The position numbers and the translations under genes are program-made. A stretch of 64,000 nucleotides of DNA from Streptomyces sp. NBC_00539 (GTDB lineage Bacteria; Actinomycetota; Actinomycetes; Streptomycetales; Streptomycetaceae). Shown in pieces: positions 7,500 to 23,269 of the stretch. Numbering within the stretch: position 1 is the first letter of the stretch; each line of letters begins with the position of its first letter. The DNA lies in the NCBI RefSeq assembly GCF_036346105.1, contig NZ_CP107811.1, forward strand, positions 930,001 to 994,000, read 5' to 3'. The notes below the pieces were generated by a model that worked only from the letters and a program-made list of their open reading frames with translations, searched no databases and was not told the DNA's origin.

Positions 7500-8444
7500 A
7501 TGAACCCCTCCCCGTCCGATCCCGTACCCGCGCCCTCCTCCGCCTCGCGTGACCTGCTTCCGGGAGTCGTCGGCATGGTGCTGGTCGGCAGCAGCGTCAC
7601 CATCTCCCGTTCGCTCGCCGGCGCCCCGCTCTTCGCTCCCCAGGCCGTCCGTTACGCGGCCGCCGCCGTGATCCTCTTCGTCCTCGCCCGCGCCGCCCGG
7701 GTGCCGTTGCTGCGTCCGCGCGGCCGTGAGTGGCTGTGGCTGGCCGGGATCGCGGCGAGCGGGCTGGTGCTGTTCAACGTGGCCGTGGTGCGGGGCGTCG
7801 CGCACGCCGAGCCGGCCGTCATCGCGGTCGCGGTGGCCTCCGTACCGGTCCTGCTCGCCCTCGTCGGTCCGCTGCTGGAGCGGCAGCGGCCCAGCCGTCG
7901 GGTGCTGCTGGCCGCCCCCGTCGTCGTCGCCGGGGCCGCGCTCGTGGAGGGGGCCGGGCGCACCGACGCGGCCGGGGTGGGCTGGGCCGCGCTCGCGCTG
8001 GGCTGCGAGGCCGGGTTCACGTTGCTGGCGGTGCCGGTGCTGGGCCGCCACGGTGCGTGGGGGGTGTCCGTGCACGCGGTGTGGCTGGGGGCGGTGATGC
8101 TGGCGGGGCTCACGGTGCTCGTGGAGCGACCCGGCTCTCTCGCGGCGCTCGGGCCCGGACAGTGGGCGGCGGTCGGCTACCTGGCCGTCCTGGTGACGGC
8201 GGTGGCGTTCCTGCTCTGGTACCGGACGGTGGCGGCCGTGGGCGCCGGCCGGGCCGGGCTGCTCGCCGGGCTCGCCCCGCTCGCCGCGGCCGGGGCGGGA
8301 GCGGCGTCGGGCGGTGGGGTCCCGGGAGCGGCGGTGTGGCTGGGACTCGCCGTGGTGGTCGCGGGGCTGGTGGTCGGGCTGCGGCCGAGCGGTGCGCCGG
8401 CGGCGGAGCCGGTGGGCGTCGAGCGGGTGCCCGTGGCCCCTTGA
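7500..8444 (+). CDS. EamA-family (DMT) transporter
   Basis: A 314-residue membrane protein with about ten hydrophobic helices arranged as two EamA repeats, the drug/metabolite transporter fold. These proteins export amino acids or small metabolites. The start codon at 7500 lies 28 bases from the divergent MocR start, leaving only a very short leader. Pairing of MocR regulators with EamA exporters is common in actinobacteria, which supports ligand-responsive control. The substrate is unknown. Confidence 0.87.
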   Translation: MNPSPSDPVPAPSSASRDLLPGVVGMVLVGSSVTISRSLAGAPLFAPQAVRYAAAAVILFVLARAARVPLLRPRGREWLWLAGIAASGLVLFNVAVVRGVAHAEPAVIAVAVASVPVLLALVGPLLERQRPSRRVLLAAPVVVAGAALVEGAGRTDAAGVGWAALALGCEAGFTLLAVPVLGRHGAWGVSVHAVWLGAVMLAGLTVLVERPGSLAALGPGQWAAVGYLAVLVTAVAFLLWYRTVAAVGAGRAGLLAGLAPLAAAGAGAASGGGVPGAAVWLGLAVVVAGLVVGLRPSGAPAAEPVGVERVPVAP

Positions 8445-8476
8445 GGGTGCCCGGAGCGGTGGATCACAATCCGCAG

Positions 8477-9385
8477 ATGCCGACGCCCCCGTACGACACC
8501 GCACCCCACAGCGCCGATCCGTACGGCACCGACCCGTACCGCACCGCCCCGTACAGCAGTTGGATGCGCTACTTCTCCCCCACCGCCAACCACCGCCGGC
8601 TCGGGCTGGTCTGCCTGGGCGTGGGGGTGCAGGAGGGGCCGCTGCCGGTGGTCGGCCCGCGGGCGCTCGACCACCACGTGGCCGTGGTGGTCACCCGGGG
8701 GCGGGGCTGGTTCAGCCACGGCGGGCGCCCGCCGCAGCCCGTGACGGCGCCCGCGCTGCTGTGGCTCGTGCCCGGCGTCGAGCACCACTACGGACCGGAT
8801 CCGCGGACCGGCTGGGAGGAGTGCTTCGTGGACTTCGCGGGACACGGCGTGGAGGCCTACACCGATCTCGGCTACGTCACCCCCGACCGGCCGCTGGTCC
8901 CGTTGAGCGCGACGGCCGGGGTGCGGCACGTGGTGGACGGGATCGTCCGGGCGGCCCGTACCGGCGGCCCGCTGCTGGAGGTGGAGGCGGCCGCGGCGGT
9001 ACACGCGCTGCTGGTGGCCCTGCGCTACGCCCGCGCCGAGGTGTCCCGGCACGGCGACGCCGTCATGGAGGCCCTGGCGCGGGACGCACTGTTGCCGATC
9101 TCCGTCGCCGAGCACGCCGCGCGGCTCGGGATACCGCTGCCGGAGCTGCGCGGGGCGGTGCGGCGCAGCACCGGCGAGGGCGTCAAGGAGTACCTCCTCG
9201 GCATCAGACTGAGCCGGGCCAAGGAGCTGCTGGCCCGCACCGATCTGCCGGTCGCCGGGGTCGCCCGGAGGGTCGGGTACGACGACCCCGGGTATTTCAG
9301 CCGGCTGTTCAGCCGCCGCGTCGGCATGGCCCCGGGCCGCTTCCGCGCCCAGCAGTCCTTCCGCGACGCCGGGCGGCAAGGGTGA
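8477..9385 (+). CDS. AraC-family transcriptional regulator
   Basis: A 302-residue regulator with an N-terminal AraC-type cupin (about 30-170) and a C-terminal double helix-turn-helix (about 200-295). The second HTH is typical: VAGVARRVGYDDPGYFSRLF, followed by the GMAPGRFR end motif. AraC proteins with such cupins usually respond to sugars. It lies 32 bp after the EamA gene and is convergent with a methyltransferase/GH101 operon, so it may control that glycosidase, though nothing in the sequence proves it. The first 30 residues are Tyr/Pro-rich; a later start at an internal Met is possible. Confidence 0.87.
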   Translation: MPTPPYDTAPHSADPYGTDPYRTAPYSSWMRYFSPTANHRRLGLVCLGVGVQEGPLPVVGPRALDHHVAVVVTRGRGWFSHGGRPPQPVTAPALLWLVPGVEHHYGPDPRTGWEECFVDFAGHGVEAYTDLGYVTPDRPLVPLSATAGVRHVVDGIVRAARTGGPLLEVEAAAAVHALLVALRYARAEVSRHGDAVMEALARDALLPISVAEHAARLGIPLPELRGAVRRSTGEGVKEYLLGIRLSRAKELLARTDLPVAGVARRVGYDDPGYFSRLFSRRVGMAPGRFRAQQSFRDAGRQG

Positions 9386-18302: not shown

Positions 18303-18343
18303 GCCGGGAGGCCGGCTCCTCGCCGAGGGGCCGGCCTCCCGGC
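18303..18343. terminator. Strong hairpin between convergent SH3 and NYN genes
   Basis: GCCGGGAGGCCGGC (18303-18316) pairs perfectly with GCCGGCCTCCCGGC (18330-18343), and CCTCG/CGAGG can extend the stem inside. It lies between the two stops and probably serves both strands. Confidence 0.8.
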
Positions 18344-18348
18344 CGTCG

Positions 18349-18708
18349 TCATCCGGCCGGGCGGACGGTGCGCGGCCCCGCGCACCGCGCCCCGTACGCC
18401 TCCACCCGCGCGCGCAGCTCCCGGTCCGCCGTGACCACCACCAGGGCGCCGCCTTCGCCGCGCTCCGCGTAGTGCGCCACCAGCTCCACGATCCGGTCGT
18501 CGCCGCTCCCGGGCGCCGCGTCCACCCGTACGCCGGGGACGGATGCGACGCCCCGGGCCGCGCCTTCGACCACGAGGACGATCTCCTCACCCGCCCCGCG
18601 CCGGGCGAGCCGGTCGCGCAGCCGCTCGGCCGCGCCGCGCCGGTCCCGCCACCAGCCGTCGGGGACTGACCCGACGACGTTCGCGGCGTCCACGATCAGT
18701 ACGTCCAC
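18349..18708 (-). CDS. NYN/YacP-like nuclease-type protein
   Basis: A protein of about 119 residues with a PIN-like NYN pattern. It starts with an acidic first strand (VDVLIVDAANVVGS), has a central GDDRIVEL acidic block, and has a late VVTADRELRARVE strand as in YacP/NYN ribonucleases. The metal-binding acidic residues are kept, so RNA cleavage is plausible. I placed the start at the GTG at 18708; a GTG at 18732 would add eight residues. It follows the kinase/phosphatase gene by less than 50 bp and completes a three-gene RNA-processing run. Confidence 0.72.
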   Translation of the reverse strand: MDVLIVDAANVVGSVPDGWWRDRRGAAERLRDRLARRGAGEEIVLVVEGAARGVASVPGVRVDAAPGSGDDRIVELVAHYAERGEGGALVVVTADRELRARVEAYGARCAGPRTVRPAG

Positions 18709-18755
18709 AGGTGCTCGCGCAGGAACTTCCACGGGTACGACTGTCGCAGACCCGC

Positions 18756-19760
18756 TCAGAAGTCGCCGTAGGCGACCTGCCAGGTCGGCAGGCCCATCCG
18801 GCGCCAGACGGCCACGACGCGGTCCCGGTCGTCGAGCGAGACGCGCACCGCGTAGCGGTGGCGCAGGTGCGCATCGAAGAGTTCCGCCTTCACGACGTCG
18901 TCGCGGCGCTGGTCCCCGGCCGCCCGCATCCACAGCTCGTCGTAGGGGACCTGGTGCCGCTCCAGCCAGGCCTCGGTCTGCGGGCGGTGTTCCTCACTGC
19001 GCCCCGACAGCAGCACGATGACGTCCCCGTCGGCGCGCCGGAAGGCGTCCAGGGCGCGTCGCACCGGCTCGTTCGGCAGGTCCAGCCCGCAGCGGGTGAA
19101 GTCGTACGGGCCGCGGTCGCCGGTCAGCGCCAGCGTCCCGTCGATGTCGCACATCACCGCGGCGGGCAGCGCGGGGTCGGCCACGTAGGGCTCGACCGGG
19201 GGCTCGTCGTTCAGCCACTGCGCGGTCAGCCTCCAGCCTCCCTTGCGGGACTTCGCGTGCTTGTCGGCCAGGATCCGGATGATCTCCTCGCCCACCGGCC
19301 GCTCGCGTGCGGCATCGCGGCGCACGCACTCCTCGACGGGCACGTCGGTGAAGTCGTGGACGACGAAGGTGGCGAGGCCGGCGACGGCCGCCTTGAGGCG
19401 CTTGGGGATGTGCGGGGTGAGGTGGGTGTTGTCGACGACCACGTCGAACCCGCCCGTCACGGCGGCCCGCAGCGCCGCGTCCTGGACGTCGAGCGCGGTC
19501 CGTTCGTGCGCGTACGAGAGGCCGCGTCCGTGGTCGGGGCCGTCCAGCATGACCCGGAGGTCGTCCAGGTTCACCCGGCGCATCCGGCCGCCGGACTGCG
19601 CTTGGAGCGCCCGGGCCGCGGTGGTCTTGCCCGAGGCGGGCAGGCCCGTCATGACGTGCACGACCGGGCGGGCCGGGGGCGCGGGGGTCCGGGGGGCGAG
19701 GGCGGTGTCGGGGGTCTCGGGGGCCTCGGGGGTCTCGGGGGCCTCCGGTTCTGCGGACAC
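18756..19760 (-). CDS. Polynucleotide 5'-kinase/3'-phosphatase, T4 Pnkp-like
   Basis: A 334-residue two-domain RNA/DNA end-healing enzyme. After a Pro/Glu-rich leader (1-32) comes a P-loop kinase with GLPASGKTT (39-47) and the acidic NLDDLR segment. It is followed by a HAD phosphatase with CDIDGTLA (D205 and D207) and the later LLSGRSEE motif. The kinase-then-phosphatase order is that of phage T4 Pnkp, which turns 5'-OH and 2',3'-cyclic phosphate ends into ligatable ones. Its GTG start is 5 bases past the stop of the RNA ligase gene, so the two are translationally linked. Confidence 0.87.
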   Translation of the reverse strand: MSAEPEAPETPEAPETPDTALAPRTPAPPARPVVHVMTGLPASGKTTAARALQAQSGGRMRRVNLDDLRVMLDGPDHGRGLSYAHERTALDVQDAALRAAVTGGFDVVVDNTHLTPHIPKRLKAAVAGLATFVVHDFTDVPVEECVRRDAARERPVGEEIIRILADKHAKSRKGGWRLTAQWLNDEPPVEPYVADPALPAAVMCDIDGTLALTGDRGPYDFTRCGLDLPNEPVRRALDAFRRADGDVIVLLSGRSEEHRPQTEAWLERHQVPYDELWMRAAGDQRRDDVVKAELFDAHLRHRYAVRVSLDDRDRVVAVWRRMGLPTWQVAYGDF

Positions 19761-19765
19761 GGTGC

Positions 19766-20974
19766 TCAGTTCTCCTCATCGGTGGTGAAGGGGTCGGCCG
19801 ATTCCGGCCGTACGGCACGCCAGGTGACGAGCTCGGTCTGCTTGTGGTCCAGACGCAAGAACAGCGCGGAACGGATCCCGCTGTCGGGCAGCGCCCGCAC
19901 CGCCCGGGCGAAGGCACCCCGGTCACCGGCCAGGTGCGCCAGTGACCCGAAGGCCTCGTCGATGGCGCGCTCGCGCCGCGCGGCGGCTTCCTCCAGCCGC
20001 TCGATGACCTCACGCACCCATGCGTCGAACTCGTCGGGCACCTGCCGCAGCAGCGCGTCGAGCGGCTTGCCGCCCGAGGCCTCGATGTCGGCGACACTGC
20101 AGTTCAGGCCCTGGGCGAGCTGCTTGGCGGGCAGGCCGGCGAAGCGCTGGATGCCGTGGCTGCGCCAGATGTCGCGCTCGGTGACGCCGGTGAGCACCTT
20201 GTGCAGGCGTACGTACTCGGCGATCTTGGCCTTGGCGCGGACGCCCGAGGCGAAGCGCAGGACGAAGCCCTCGGCATCGGTGCCGGTGGCCGGGGCGCCG
20301 CCGGGCAGGGTGCTGGACTCGGTGAGCGCGAGGAGTTCGGCGAGCGGCATCGCCGGCCATACGGTGACGACCGAGCCGATCTCCCGCCAGTGCCCGGCGG
20401 CTTCGGCGAGCGGCACCTCGGCGCCGTCCCGGCCGAAGGCGGCCAGGAGCACCAGGTCGCGTCGGTCGCCGTAGTCCACGACGATCCGGTTCTGCGGGTA
20501 GAGGATCTCGGCGAGGTAGGTGACGCCGGGTACGAGGTGCTTGGTGTCGCGGCCGTCGAGACGGCGCTGCGCCCAGGTCGCCTGCTCGCTGATGAAGGAG
20601 CCCTTGGAGGCCGCGCGCCAGGTGCCCGCGTAGTGGAAGACGACCGCGAGGCTGCCGTCGACCTTGTCGTACACCTCGAAGGGTTCGTCGGGCAGGGAGG
20701 GCGCGTACGGCTGACCCGATTCGTGCTCGCCCACGTTGAAGAACTTCGGCAGGGGCAGGGCGACGATCCGGCCGGTGGCGTCGTCGGCGACCAGGCCCCG
20801 GCAGCGCGTGGTGACCTGGTTCCAGACCCGCTCGTACTGGGCCGTGCGGGTGTAGGTGTAGATCGACAGCGGCAGTTCGGGGTGCGCCTTGCGGGTCACG
20901 TGCCCGGCGTCGATCGCCGCCTTGAGTTCCTGTGCGGGCAGCAGGTCATGCAGAGTCAGGAACGCCTGGCTCAT
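19766..20974 (-). CDS. RNA ligase, T4 Rnl1-like
   Basis: A 402-residue ATP-dependent RNA ligase. The covalent lysine motif is YDKVDGS with K104, close to K99 of T4 Rnl1. A CRGLVADD block precedes it. Motif III-like YLAEILYP (153-160), motif IV EGFVLR (235-240) and motif V KAKIAEYVRLH (248-258) follow, as does a helical C-terminal domain as in Rnl1. GGGAGG supports the ATG at 20974. With the Pnkp-like protein encoded next, it could reseal RNAs cut by anticodon nucleases or other endonucleases. Confidence 0.87.
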   Translation of the reverse strand: MSQAFLTLHDLLPAQELKAAIDAGHVTRKAHPELPLSIYTYTRTAQYERVWNQVTTRCRGLVADDATGRIVALPLPKFFNVGEHESGQPYAPSLPDEPFEVYDKVDGSLAVVFHYAGTWRAASKGSFISEQATWAQRRLDGRDTKHLVPGVTYLAEILYPQNRIVVDYGDRRDLVLLAAFGRDGAEVPLAEAAGHWREIGSVVTVWPAMPLAELLALTESSTLPGGAPATGTDAEGFVLRFASGVRAKAKIAEYVRLHKVLTGVTERDIWRSHGIQRFAGLPAKQLAQGLNCSVADIEASGGKPLDALLRQVPDEFDAWVREVIERLEEAAARRERAIDEAFGSLAHLAGDRGAFARAVRALPDSGIRSALFLRLDHKQTELVTWRAVRPESADPFTTDEEN

Positions 20975-21091
20975 GGGGTCCTCCCGGGTCGAGATGGCTC
21001 ATTCTCACGTGCGGGAGGGTGGCCCGGTAATCAATTATGACCGGCCGGAGGGCGTGCCGACGGCGCCCGGCGCCGGCGGGAAACCGGTCGT

Positions 21092-22642: not shown

Positions 22643-23269
22643 TCAGGCGACGCCTTGGGTACGGAACTGGATGCTGATGCGGGGGCCGACGGCCCGCGTC
22701 GACTTCGGCACCGCGTGCTCCATGGTGCGCTGGCAGGAGCCGCCCATCACCACGAGGTCGCCGTGGCCCAGGGGCAGGCGCAGCAGCGTGGGACCGCCGT
22801 CGCGGGGGCGGATCGCCAGGTCGCGCGGGTCACCCACGGAGAGGATGGCGACCATCGTGTCCTCGGTGGCGGAGCGGCCGGTGCGGTCCCCGTGCCAGGC
22901 CACGCTGTCGCGGCCGTCGCGGTAGAGGCACAGTCCGGCGGTGACGAAGGGCTCGCCGAGCTCCTCGGCGTAGTACCGGTCGAGCGCCGTGCGGGCTTCG
23001 GTGAGGACGGGGTGCGGGAGCGTCTCCCCGGCCCGGTAGTAGGACAGCAGCCGGGGCACGGCGACCTCGCGGTCGTACATCCGGCGCCGCTCGGCCTGCC
23101 AGGGCACGTCGGCGGCGAGCCTTTCGAACAGCGCGTCGGCGCCGGTCAGCCAGCCGGGCAGGTGGTCGGCCCAGGCGCCGGCTCCCAGGTCGGTCCGGCA
23201 CAGCCCGGCGAGCGGGCCGAGCCGGATCTCGTCGGTCTGGTCGAAGAGGGATCCCTGGAGCGCGTGCAT
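22643..23269 (-). CDS. AlkB-family 2-oxoglutarate/Fe(II) dioxygenase
   Basis: A 208-residue AlkB-type enzyme that removes alkyl groups from bases in DNA or RNA, using Fe(II), O2 and 2-oxoglutarate. The iron ligands are visible in WHGDRTG (H126, D128) and EHAVPK (H185). The 2-oxoglutarate arginine is probably R191 or R197. The YDRE and PRLLSYY segments of the substrate lid are present at 65-77. Its closeness to an RNA-repair cassette raises the chance of an RNA role but does not prove it. Confidence 0.88.
   Translation of the reverse strand: MHALQGSLFDQTDEIRLGPLAGLCRTDLGAGAWADHLPGWLTGADALFERLAADVPWQAERRRMYDREVAVPRLLSYYRAGETLPHPVLTEARTALDRYYAEELGEPFVTAGLCLYRDGRDSVAWHGDRTGRSATEDTMVAILSVGDPRDLAIRPRDGGPTLLRLPLGHGDLVVMGGSCQRTMEHAVPKSTRAVGPRISIQFRTQGVA

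Follow-up and report, generated by a model that had tools for sequence, protein, structure and literature searches.

Positions 930,001 to 994,000 of contig NZ_CP107811.1 from Streptomyces sp. NBC_00539, a 64-kb stretch of DNA referred to here as the window, carry two adjacent genes on the minus strand: lig, coding for a T4 Rnl1-type ATP-dependent RNA ligase, and pnk, coding for a polynucleotide 5'-kinase/HAD 3'-phosphatase (Pnkp) with the domain order of the T4 enzyme. The two genes probably constitute a chromosomal RNA repair module working like the Pnkp-Rnl1 pair of phage T4, with an activity that we infer from sequence. This reading is based on the fold families and catalytic residues of both proteins, their fixed pairing, co-inheritance and purifying selection, and on a conserved promoter-like element in front of lig. 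A frame for an NYN-like protein follows pnk, so the run of three genes on one strand reported in the preliminary description is present in the window.

During repair, the C-terminal HAD domain of Pnkp would take off the 3'-phosphate or 2',3'-cyclic phosphate of the broken RNA, the N-terminal P-loop domain would phosphorylate the 5'-OH, and the ligase would seal the break using ATP via an adenylylated lysine (K104) and AppRNA. The substrate may be tRNA or some other RNA belonging to the translation machinery, and the module could be expected to be turned on under stress.

lig (19766-20974, minus strand) encodes a protein of 402 aa, assigned by Pfam, PHROG, a family profile and its catalytic residues. 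It matches Pfam RNA_lig_T4_1 (PF09511) over the cut-off (E 3.5e-15) and PHROG 562 (E 6.5e-50), and a profile built from 32 of its relatives finds T4 Rnl1 at E 1.7e-28. The match to the NCBIfam equivalog TIGR02308 reaches 42 bits only, far under the 242-bit cut-off. The PF09511 nucleotidyltransferase domain contains motifs I, III, IV and V. K104, the nucleotidyl-acceptor lysine by homology, sits in KVDGS and is invariant, together with D106, G107, S108, E156, E235, G236, K248 and K250, in a 12-row alignment including plasmid and phage relatives. The Rnl1-like ligase recognised in the preliminary description by this lysine is thus borne out by both the family match and the motif residues. The GGGAGGA sequence at 20979-20985 (minus strand) reads as the ribosome-binding site of lig.

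pnk (18756-19760, minus strand) begins with a GTG at 19760, 5 bp past the lig stop (19766), and encodes 334 aa; its assignment comes from Pfam, PHROG, structure matches and residues. AAA_33 is followed by HAD_PNKP (E 1.8e-50), so the T4 domain order and the 5-bp gap noticed earlier are both correct. The protein matches T4 Pnkp (1ltq) over approximately its full length (E 2e-31), and its best match among solved structures, again nearly over the whole length, is Pnkp1 (4xrp, E 1.3e-40). Both the N-terminal P-loop kinase (G44-K45 of the P-loop, D66, R69, R148) and the C-terminal HAD phosphatase (D205, D207, S252-G253-R254, D310, D311) have their catalytic residues, conserved in 98% or more of 97 rows, as are those of the ligase.

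A genome scan found 123 relatives, the best 80 of which were kept as loci for the counts given below (78 Streptomyces by name, one Microtetraspora glauca record and one other actinobacterium). In every one of the 80 fetched loci, pnk is the next gene after lig and has the same orientation. Presence and absence were scored in 101 Streptomyces genomes: lig was found in 22 of them and a full-length Pnkp match (E no higher than 3.9e-62) in the same 22, always adjoining. This linkage is far above chance. The distance matrices of lig and pnk correlate over the 80 loci (r 0.75, a value reached by none of 500 permutations), and purifying selection acts on both genes, the ratio of nonsynonymous to synonymous substitution rates (dN/dS) to six relatives being 0.13-0.28 for lig and 0.12-0.19 for pnk. 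According to a home-made open reading frame (ORF) caller, the first upstream genes fall into 43 clusters over 78 loci and the first downstream genes into 35 clusters over 79 loci; apart from the adjacency of lig and pnk, no neighbour gene is kept across the loci. Class-wide, at least 19 of 394 genomes and at least 5 of 137 genera match at E 1e-10, with five candidates scored per genome. The pair is likely to be a conserved RNA end-healing and sealing unit, accessory in Streptomyces.

Some observations weigh against such a role. The C-terminal domain of Rnl1 is unmatched by sequence, as the profile alignment stops at residue 258 of T4 Rnl1, and 79 of the 101 Streptomyces genomes get by without the pair. 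T4 Pnkp accepts DNA ends too, so the RNA specificity of the pair hangs on the ligase. As enzymes of the T4 Pnkp type accept DNA, Pnkp could condition DNA breaks, and DNA, adenylylated or not, could be the substrate of the ligase. The ligase, however, is of the Rnl1 type and not of a DNA-ligase family, and a LexA-like box precedes it in none of the 80 loci by the main pattern and, close to chance, in one by a looser pattern (about 0.1 expected), which makes DNA end repair highly improbable.

In a quick ligase tree calculated without bootstrap, the 94 chromosomal Streptomyces rows form one group (SH-aLRT 96), which excludes the distant L104 as well as the ligases of viruses and plasmids. L070, recorded as Microtetraspora glauca NRRL B-3735, has its ligase inside a Streptomyces group, reflecting either gene transfer or a misnamed record. 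Since the closest outgroups are viral and plasmid ligases, the pair might be seen as phage-derived cargo without host function. The low dN/dS, the conserved promoter-like element and the chromosomal location of every one of the 94 Streptomyces rows in this tree speak against such cargo, and we give it very little credence.

Another reading takes the pair as an anti-phage or anti-ribotoxin countermeasure, resealing tRNAs cut by defence anticodon nucleases or by ribotoxins of competitors, as in T4. Ligase relatives are indeed found in 888 of 50,697 phage records (and in 34 of 72,556 plasmids), none of them reaching 60% identity. Among the best 80 of 126 viral loci, for which the stored flanks were inspected, Pnkp is matched in the flanks of 19, weakly and over part of its length in one case, and in seven of these the ligase and Pnkp genes are no more than 30 bp apart, twice in reversed order. 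The patchy distribution and varied contexts of the pair also agree with a countermeasure. On the other hand, PADLOC gave no match (E 0.01) for the three proteins of the run, the flanking genes being outside that scan, and the PrrC/RloC family is over the cut-off in none of the 101 genomes (eight weak matches are below it), so there is no partner to correlate with; PrrC/RloC was accordingly dropped as a candidate for the matched damage maker. In addition, none of the 35 phage, plasmid and distant relatives tested was found to be preceded by the promoter-like element (best score 11.5, compared with at least 20.9 in the training set). We therefore consider a countermeasure role possible but doubtful.

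Other arrangements of these genes were also seen. The reversed order occurs in G433, L183 and L188, and the genes for ligase and Pnkp flank one for an RlaP nucleotidyltransferase in G309 and G369. Loci L212 and L213, from two distant actinomycete genomes, have the order ligase, RlaP, Pnkp, one of them near a ParA-like gene (by eye); RlaP is known to partner RNA ligases (accessible part of PMC7824862). Streptomyces phage Birchlyn (L089) has an RNA ligase and a polynucleotide kinase surrounded by numerous tRNA genes along with one for tmRNA. Three Streptomyces plasmids (L083-L085) encode Rnl1-type ligases of 52-54% identity with no Pnkp match nearby and with two N-6 DNA methylase genes a few genes away, and a Rhizobium plasmid (L086) has a lone ligase relative between sarcosine oxidase and pilus genes, with no Pnkp match in its flanks.

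One of the closest known systems is that of T4. The Pnkp-Rnl1 repair pathway of T4, as covered by the accessible parts of PMC3400036 and PMC4411300, shares with it the two enzyme families, the Pnkp domain order and the catalytic residues. The Streptomyces pair differs in being chromosomal, in the 5-bp distance between its genes, in having its own promoter-like element, in the unmatched Rnl1 C-terminal domain and in the above-mentioned lack of PrrC/RloC. In the Capnocytophaga Pnkp1-Rnl-Hen1 hybrid complex, too, the ligase gene comes first and a T4-like Pnkp second (accessible part of PMC4411300). The Streptomyces ligase, in contrast, is Rnl1-type, matching PF09511 and giving no match to PF16542, the ligase domain of bacterial Pnkp, and Hen1 of this genome adjoins a canonical three-domain Pnkp of its own (G000:C1:1822000-1834000, L216). 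A Hen1 partnership of the pair was ruled out, as Hen1 has this Pnkp and is present in 20 of the 22 genomes with the ligase and in 72 of the 79 others.

The bacterial Pnkp/Hen1 system likewise combines end healing and sealing, but does so with a single three-domain Pnkp that includes a metallophosphatase and the PF16542 ligase. RtcB (G000:C1:4010601-4011707), of the RtcAB type of RNA repair, is encoded in the same genome as well; it has an unrelated fold and joins 3'-phosphate ends directly, without Pnkp. Three predicted RNA repair systems thus coexist in this genome. Given that 99 of the 101 Streptomyces genomes have RtcB and 92 have Hen1, the ligase-Pnkp pair can be considered an accessory system. 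Among the titles listed by literature searches, none describes an Rnl1-Pnkp pair on a Streptomyces chromosome; a 2016 survey of RNA repair may well list it.

The promoter-like element is located at 21000-21037 (minus strand) and consists of box A, TAATTGATTACC (21037-21026), a 19-bp spacer and box B, GAGAATG (21006-21000). It was found by aligning 94 sequences upstream of lig (the 80 loci, 13 others and the window), which share box A (about TAATTCGCTGTC), a distance of 19-20 bp, box B (GAGAATG) and then a strong ribosome-binding site, the GGGAGG of which is nearly invariant. L044 is poor in box B. L061 (S. scabiei 87.22) is misplaced in the alignment and was left out of later counts: its element precedes the ligase match by about 480 bp instead of about 60, suggesting an insert or a rearranged start.

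The element is kept across about 43 upstream gene contexts. Its score in the window is 31.9, while the second-best site of the window scores 5.3. When one half of the tree was used for training and the other for testing, 56 of 61 and 32 of 32 sequences were over the shuffled 99% level. In 1.49 Mb of GC-rich loci, sites of more than 16 bits are located before lig in 94 loci and nowhere else, with a matrix built on most of these sequences. Boxes of the SigR and HAIR types were also looked for before lig and found in none of the 80 loci. This putative promoter is dedicated to the ligase-Pnkp pair.

The geometry of the element resembles that of WblC-activated promoters. In S. coelicolor the latter have been described as GAAAWY, 3 bp, TKGMNN, 16-19 bp and TANNNT, with the strongest WblC targets reported to lose the first T of the -10 (accessible part of PMC7157823 for both). 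In the element, an A-rich site whose last two letters are W-Y is separated by 3 bp from a -35 with T as its first letter, and 17-18 bp further on comes a -10 that reads NANNNT. It agrees with the consensus in the site (A 78%, A 100%, W 99%, Y 95%), the 3-bp gap (93 of 93), the T of the -35 (100%), the spacer (18 bp in 90 sequences, 17 bp in three) and the A and T of the -10 (100%), and disagrees in the G of the -35 (11%), the second A of the site (38%) and the first T of the -10 (0%). A relaxed WblC pattern, which was loosened with the ligase-upstream sequences already in view, occurs in 66 of the 93 sequences, compared with a mean of 0.46 and a maximum of 3 in shuffles and with 4 of 830 other ORF starts. 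When the published consensus and nothing else was used for scoring, the top site fell on the conserved element in 81 of 93 sequences, but no more than 36 of 93 rose above the 95% level of the control.

The genome encodes a WblC orthologue with the AT-hook KRPRGRPRK, which is the AT-hook sequence given for WblC in the accessible part of PMC6282962. The upstream region of its gene has a near-perfect WblC site and scored high (26.2). hflX was uninformative as a positive control for the score, as the scan covered entire loci and did not link any site to the start of the gene. WblC control of the lig promoter is possible. We tentatively speculate that the pair may serve the WblC/WhiB7 response as its RNA repair arm, although the odds are against it: ribosome-stalling antibiotics would induce one ligase-Pnkp transcript, and breaks made on stalled ribosomes in RNAs of the translation machinery would be healed and resealed, adding resistance to translation-targeting antibiotics. 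In the clade of NBC_00539, the transcript would also encode a Rae1-like ribosome-associated nuclease.

This nuclease would be the product of the third gene of the run, a Rae1/YacP-like NYN/PIN-fold protein of 127 aa (18349-18732, minus strand) assigned by fold, alignment and tree. Its likely start (by eye) is a GTG at 18732, 23 bp beyond the pnk stop and so within the 50 bp given in the preliminary description. The protein has no family match in Pfam, NCBIfam, PHROG or PADLOC searches. NYN_YacP is weakly touched by 18 of 20 homologues (best 3.4e-5) and by the window protein at 0.0057, under the curated cut-off. The predicted structure (mean pLDDT 80) has as its first Foldseek match Rae1/YacP 5mq9 (E 2.5e-6, TM 0.68, 21% identity over the aligned part), and D15, E56, D78, D79 and D103 are invariant in 20 rows. 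The protein is thus predicted to have an NYN/PIN fold with conserved acidic residues. Rae1/YacP is a translation-dependent nuclease; the likeness of the NYN protein to the B. subtilis enzyme is one of predicted fold.

In 27 of the 80 loci, nyn follows pnk in the same orientation. In the ligase tree, linked cases make up 30 of the 32 rows of a single clade, and parsimony requires three changes. nyn is present in 90 of the 101 Streptomyces genomes, mostly away from the pair, and is located beside pnk in 10 of the 22 genomes with the pair. Among 20 unlinked cases compared, what we take by eye to be dxs is nearby in 15 and a presumed amino-acid permease gene in 12. Of the conserved synteny that the preliminary description proposed to look for, the ligase-Pnkp part holds in all 80 loci, while nyn belongs to the run in one clade only and is an unlinked gene elsewhere; it was ruled out as a core part of the cassette. 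In the clade concerned, the NYN protein may be encoded on the same transcript, and a functional link is possible.

Such a link could take the form of cutting and mending, the Rae1-like NYN protein cutting RNA on stalled ribosomes and the ligase-Pnkp pair mending some of it, or of NYN trimming ends before sealing. Consistent with this are the nearness of the fold to Rae1/YacP, purifying selection on nyn (dN/dS 0.19-0.47) and the pnk-nyn gap, in which none of the 27 linked loci has a hairpin with an arm of at least 11 (29 of 190 control ORF ends have one). However, the adjacency is explained by one gain (plus losses) on the tree, and as only 22 of the 90 genomes with nyn have the ligase, NYN works without it. 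Metal-dependent PIN/NYN enzymes are expected to leave a 5'-phosphate and a 3'-OH, needing no Pnkp, and other clades have different genes after pnk: a DEAD-box helicase gene, on the same strand, in nine loci (L037, L048 and seven more of an S. scabiei-like group) and an RNase HI gene in eight (L064, L072-L075, L077-L079), preceded by a hairpin in seven of the eight. Taken together, these points make joint action of NYN and the pair unlikely.

With NYN, helicase and RNase HI genes after pnk, compared with no RNA gene among the 19 same-strand upstream neighbours scanned, RNA genes were considered as a regular feature of the position following pnk. This was weakened, as the NYN, helicase and RNase HI cases each represent one lineage, other downstream neighbours are non-RNA genes and the hairpin separates pnk from RNase HI in seven of the eight loci. 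At L007 an additional small P-loop kinase gene (AAA_33, 8252-8728) is located between pnk and nyn. In the window, a strong hairpin of about 18 pairs (-41 kcal/mol, 18303-18343, minus strand) directly follows the nyn stop and is a candidate transcript end; it has no T-run, and a scan for T-run terminators found none there. Hairpins with an arm of at least 11 follow nyn in 5 of the 27 loci, which is about the control rate.

An AlkB-like gene (22643-23269, minus strand, by Pfam) had been described as following the cassette. It is instead located upstream in the direction of transcription, beyond glyoxalase and SLAC1 genes. AlkB was ruled out as a member of the unit, as few of the loci examined have an AlkB match and two genes intervene. 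tRNA and Rfam searches of the window gave no match. Between 44001 and 52000 the AT skew is strongly negative (-0.21 to -0.30) over 8 kb, and the rest of the window is unlike this.

Overall, the enzyme pair is an ordinary one and its setting is unusual. What is known of T4-type RNA repair mostly concerns phages, which use it as a weapon against tRNA cutting by the host. In the present case it is a chromosomal trait of bacteria that make antibiotics; it has a conserved promoter-like switch of its own and accompanies two further RNA repair systems of the same genome. If that switch answers to WblC, the pair would permit a direct test of what bacterial RNA repair serves without phage.

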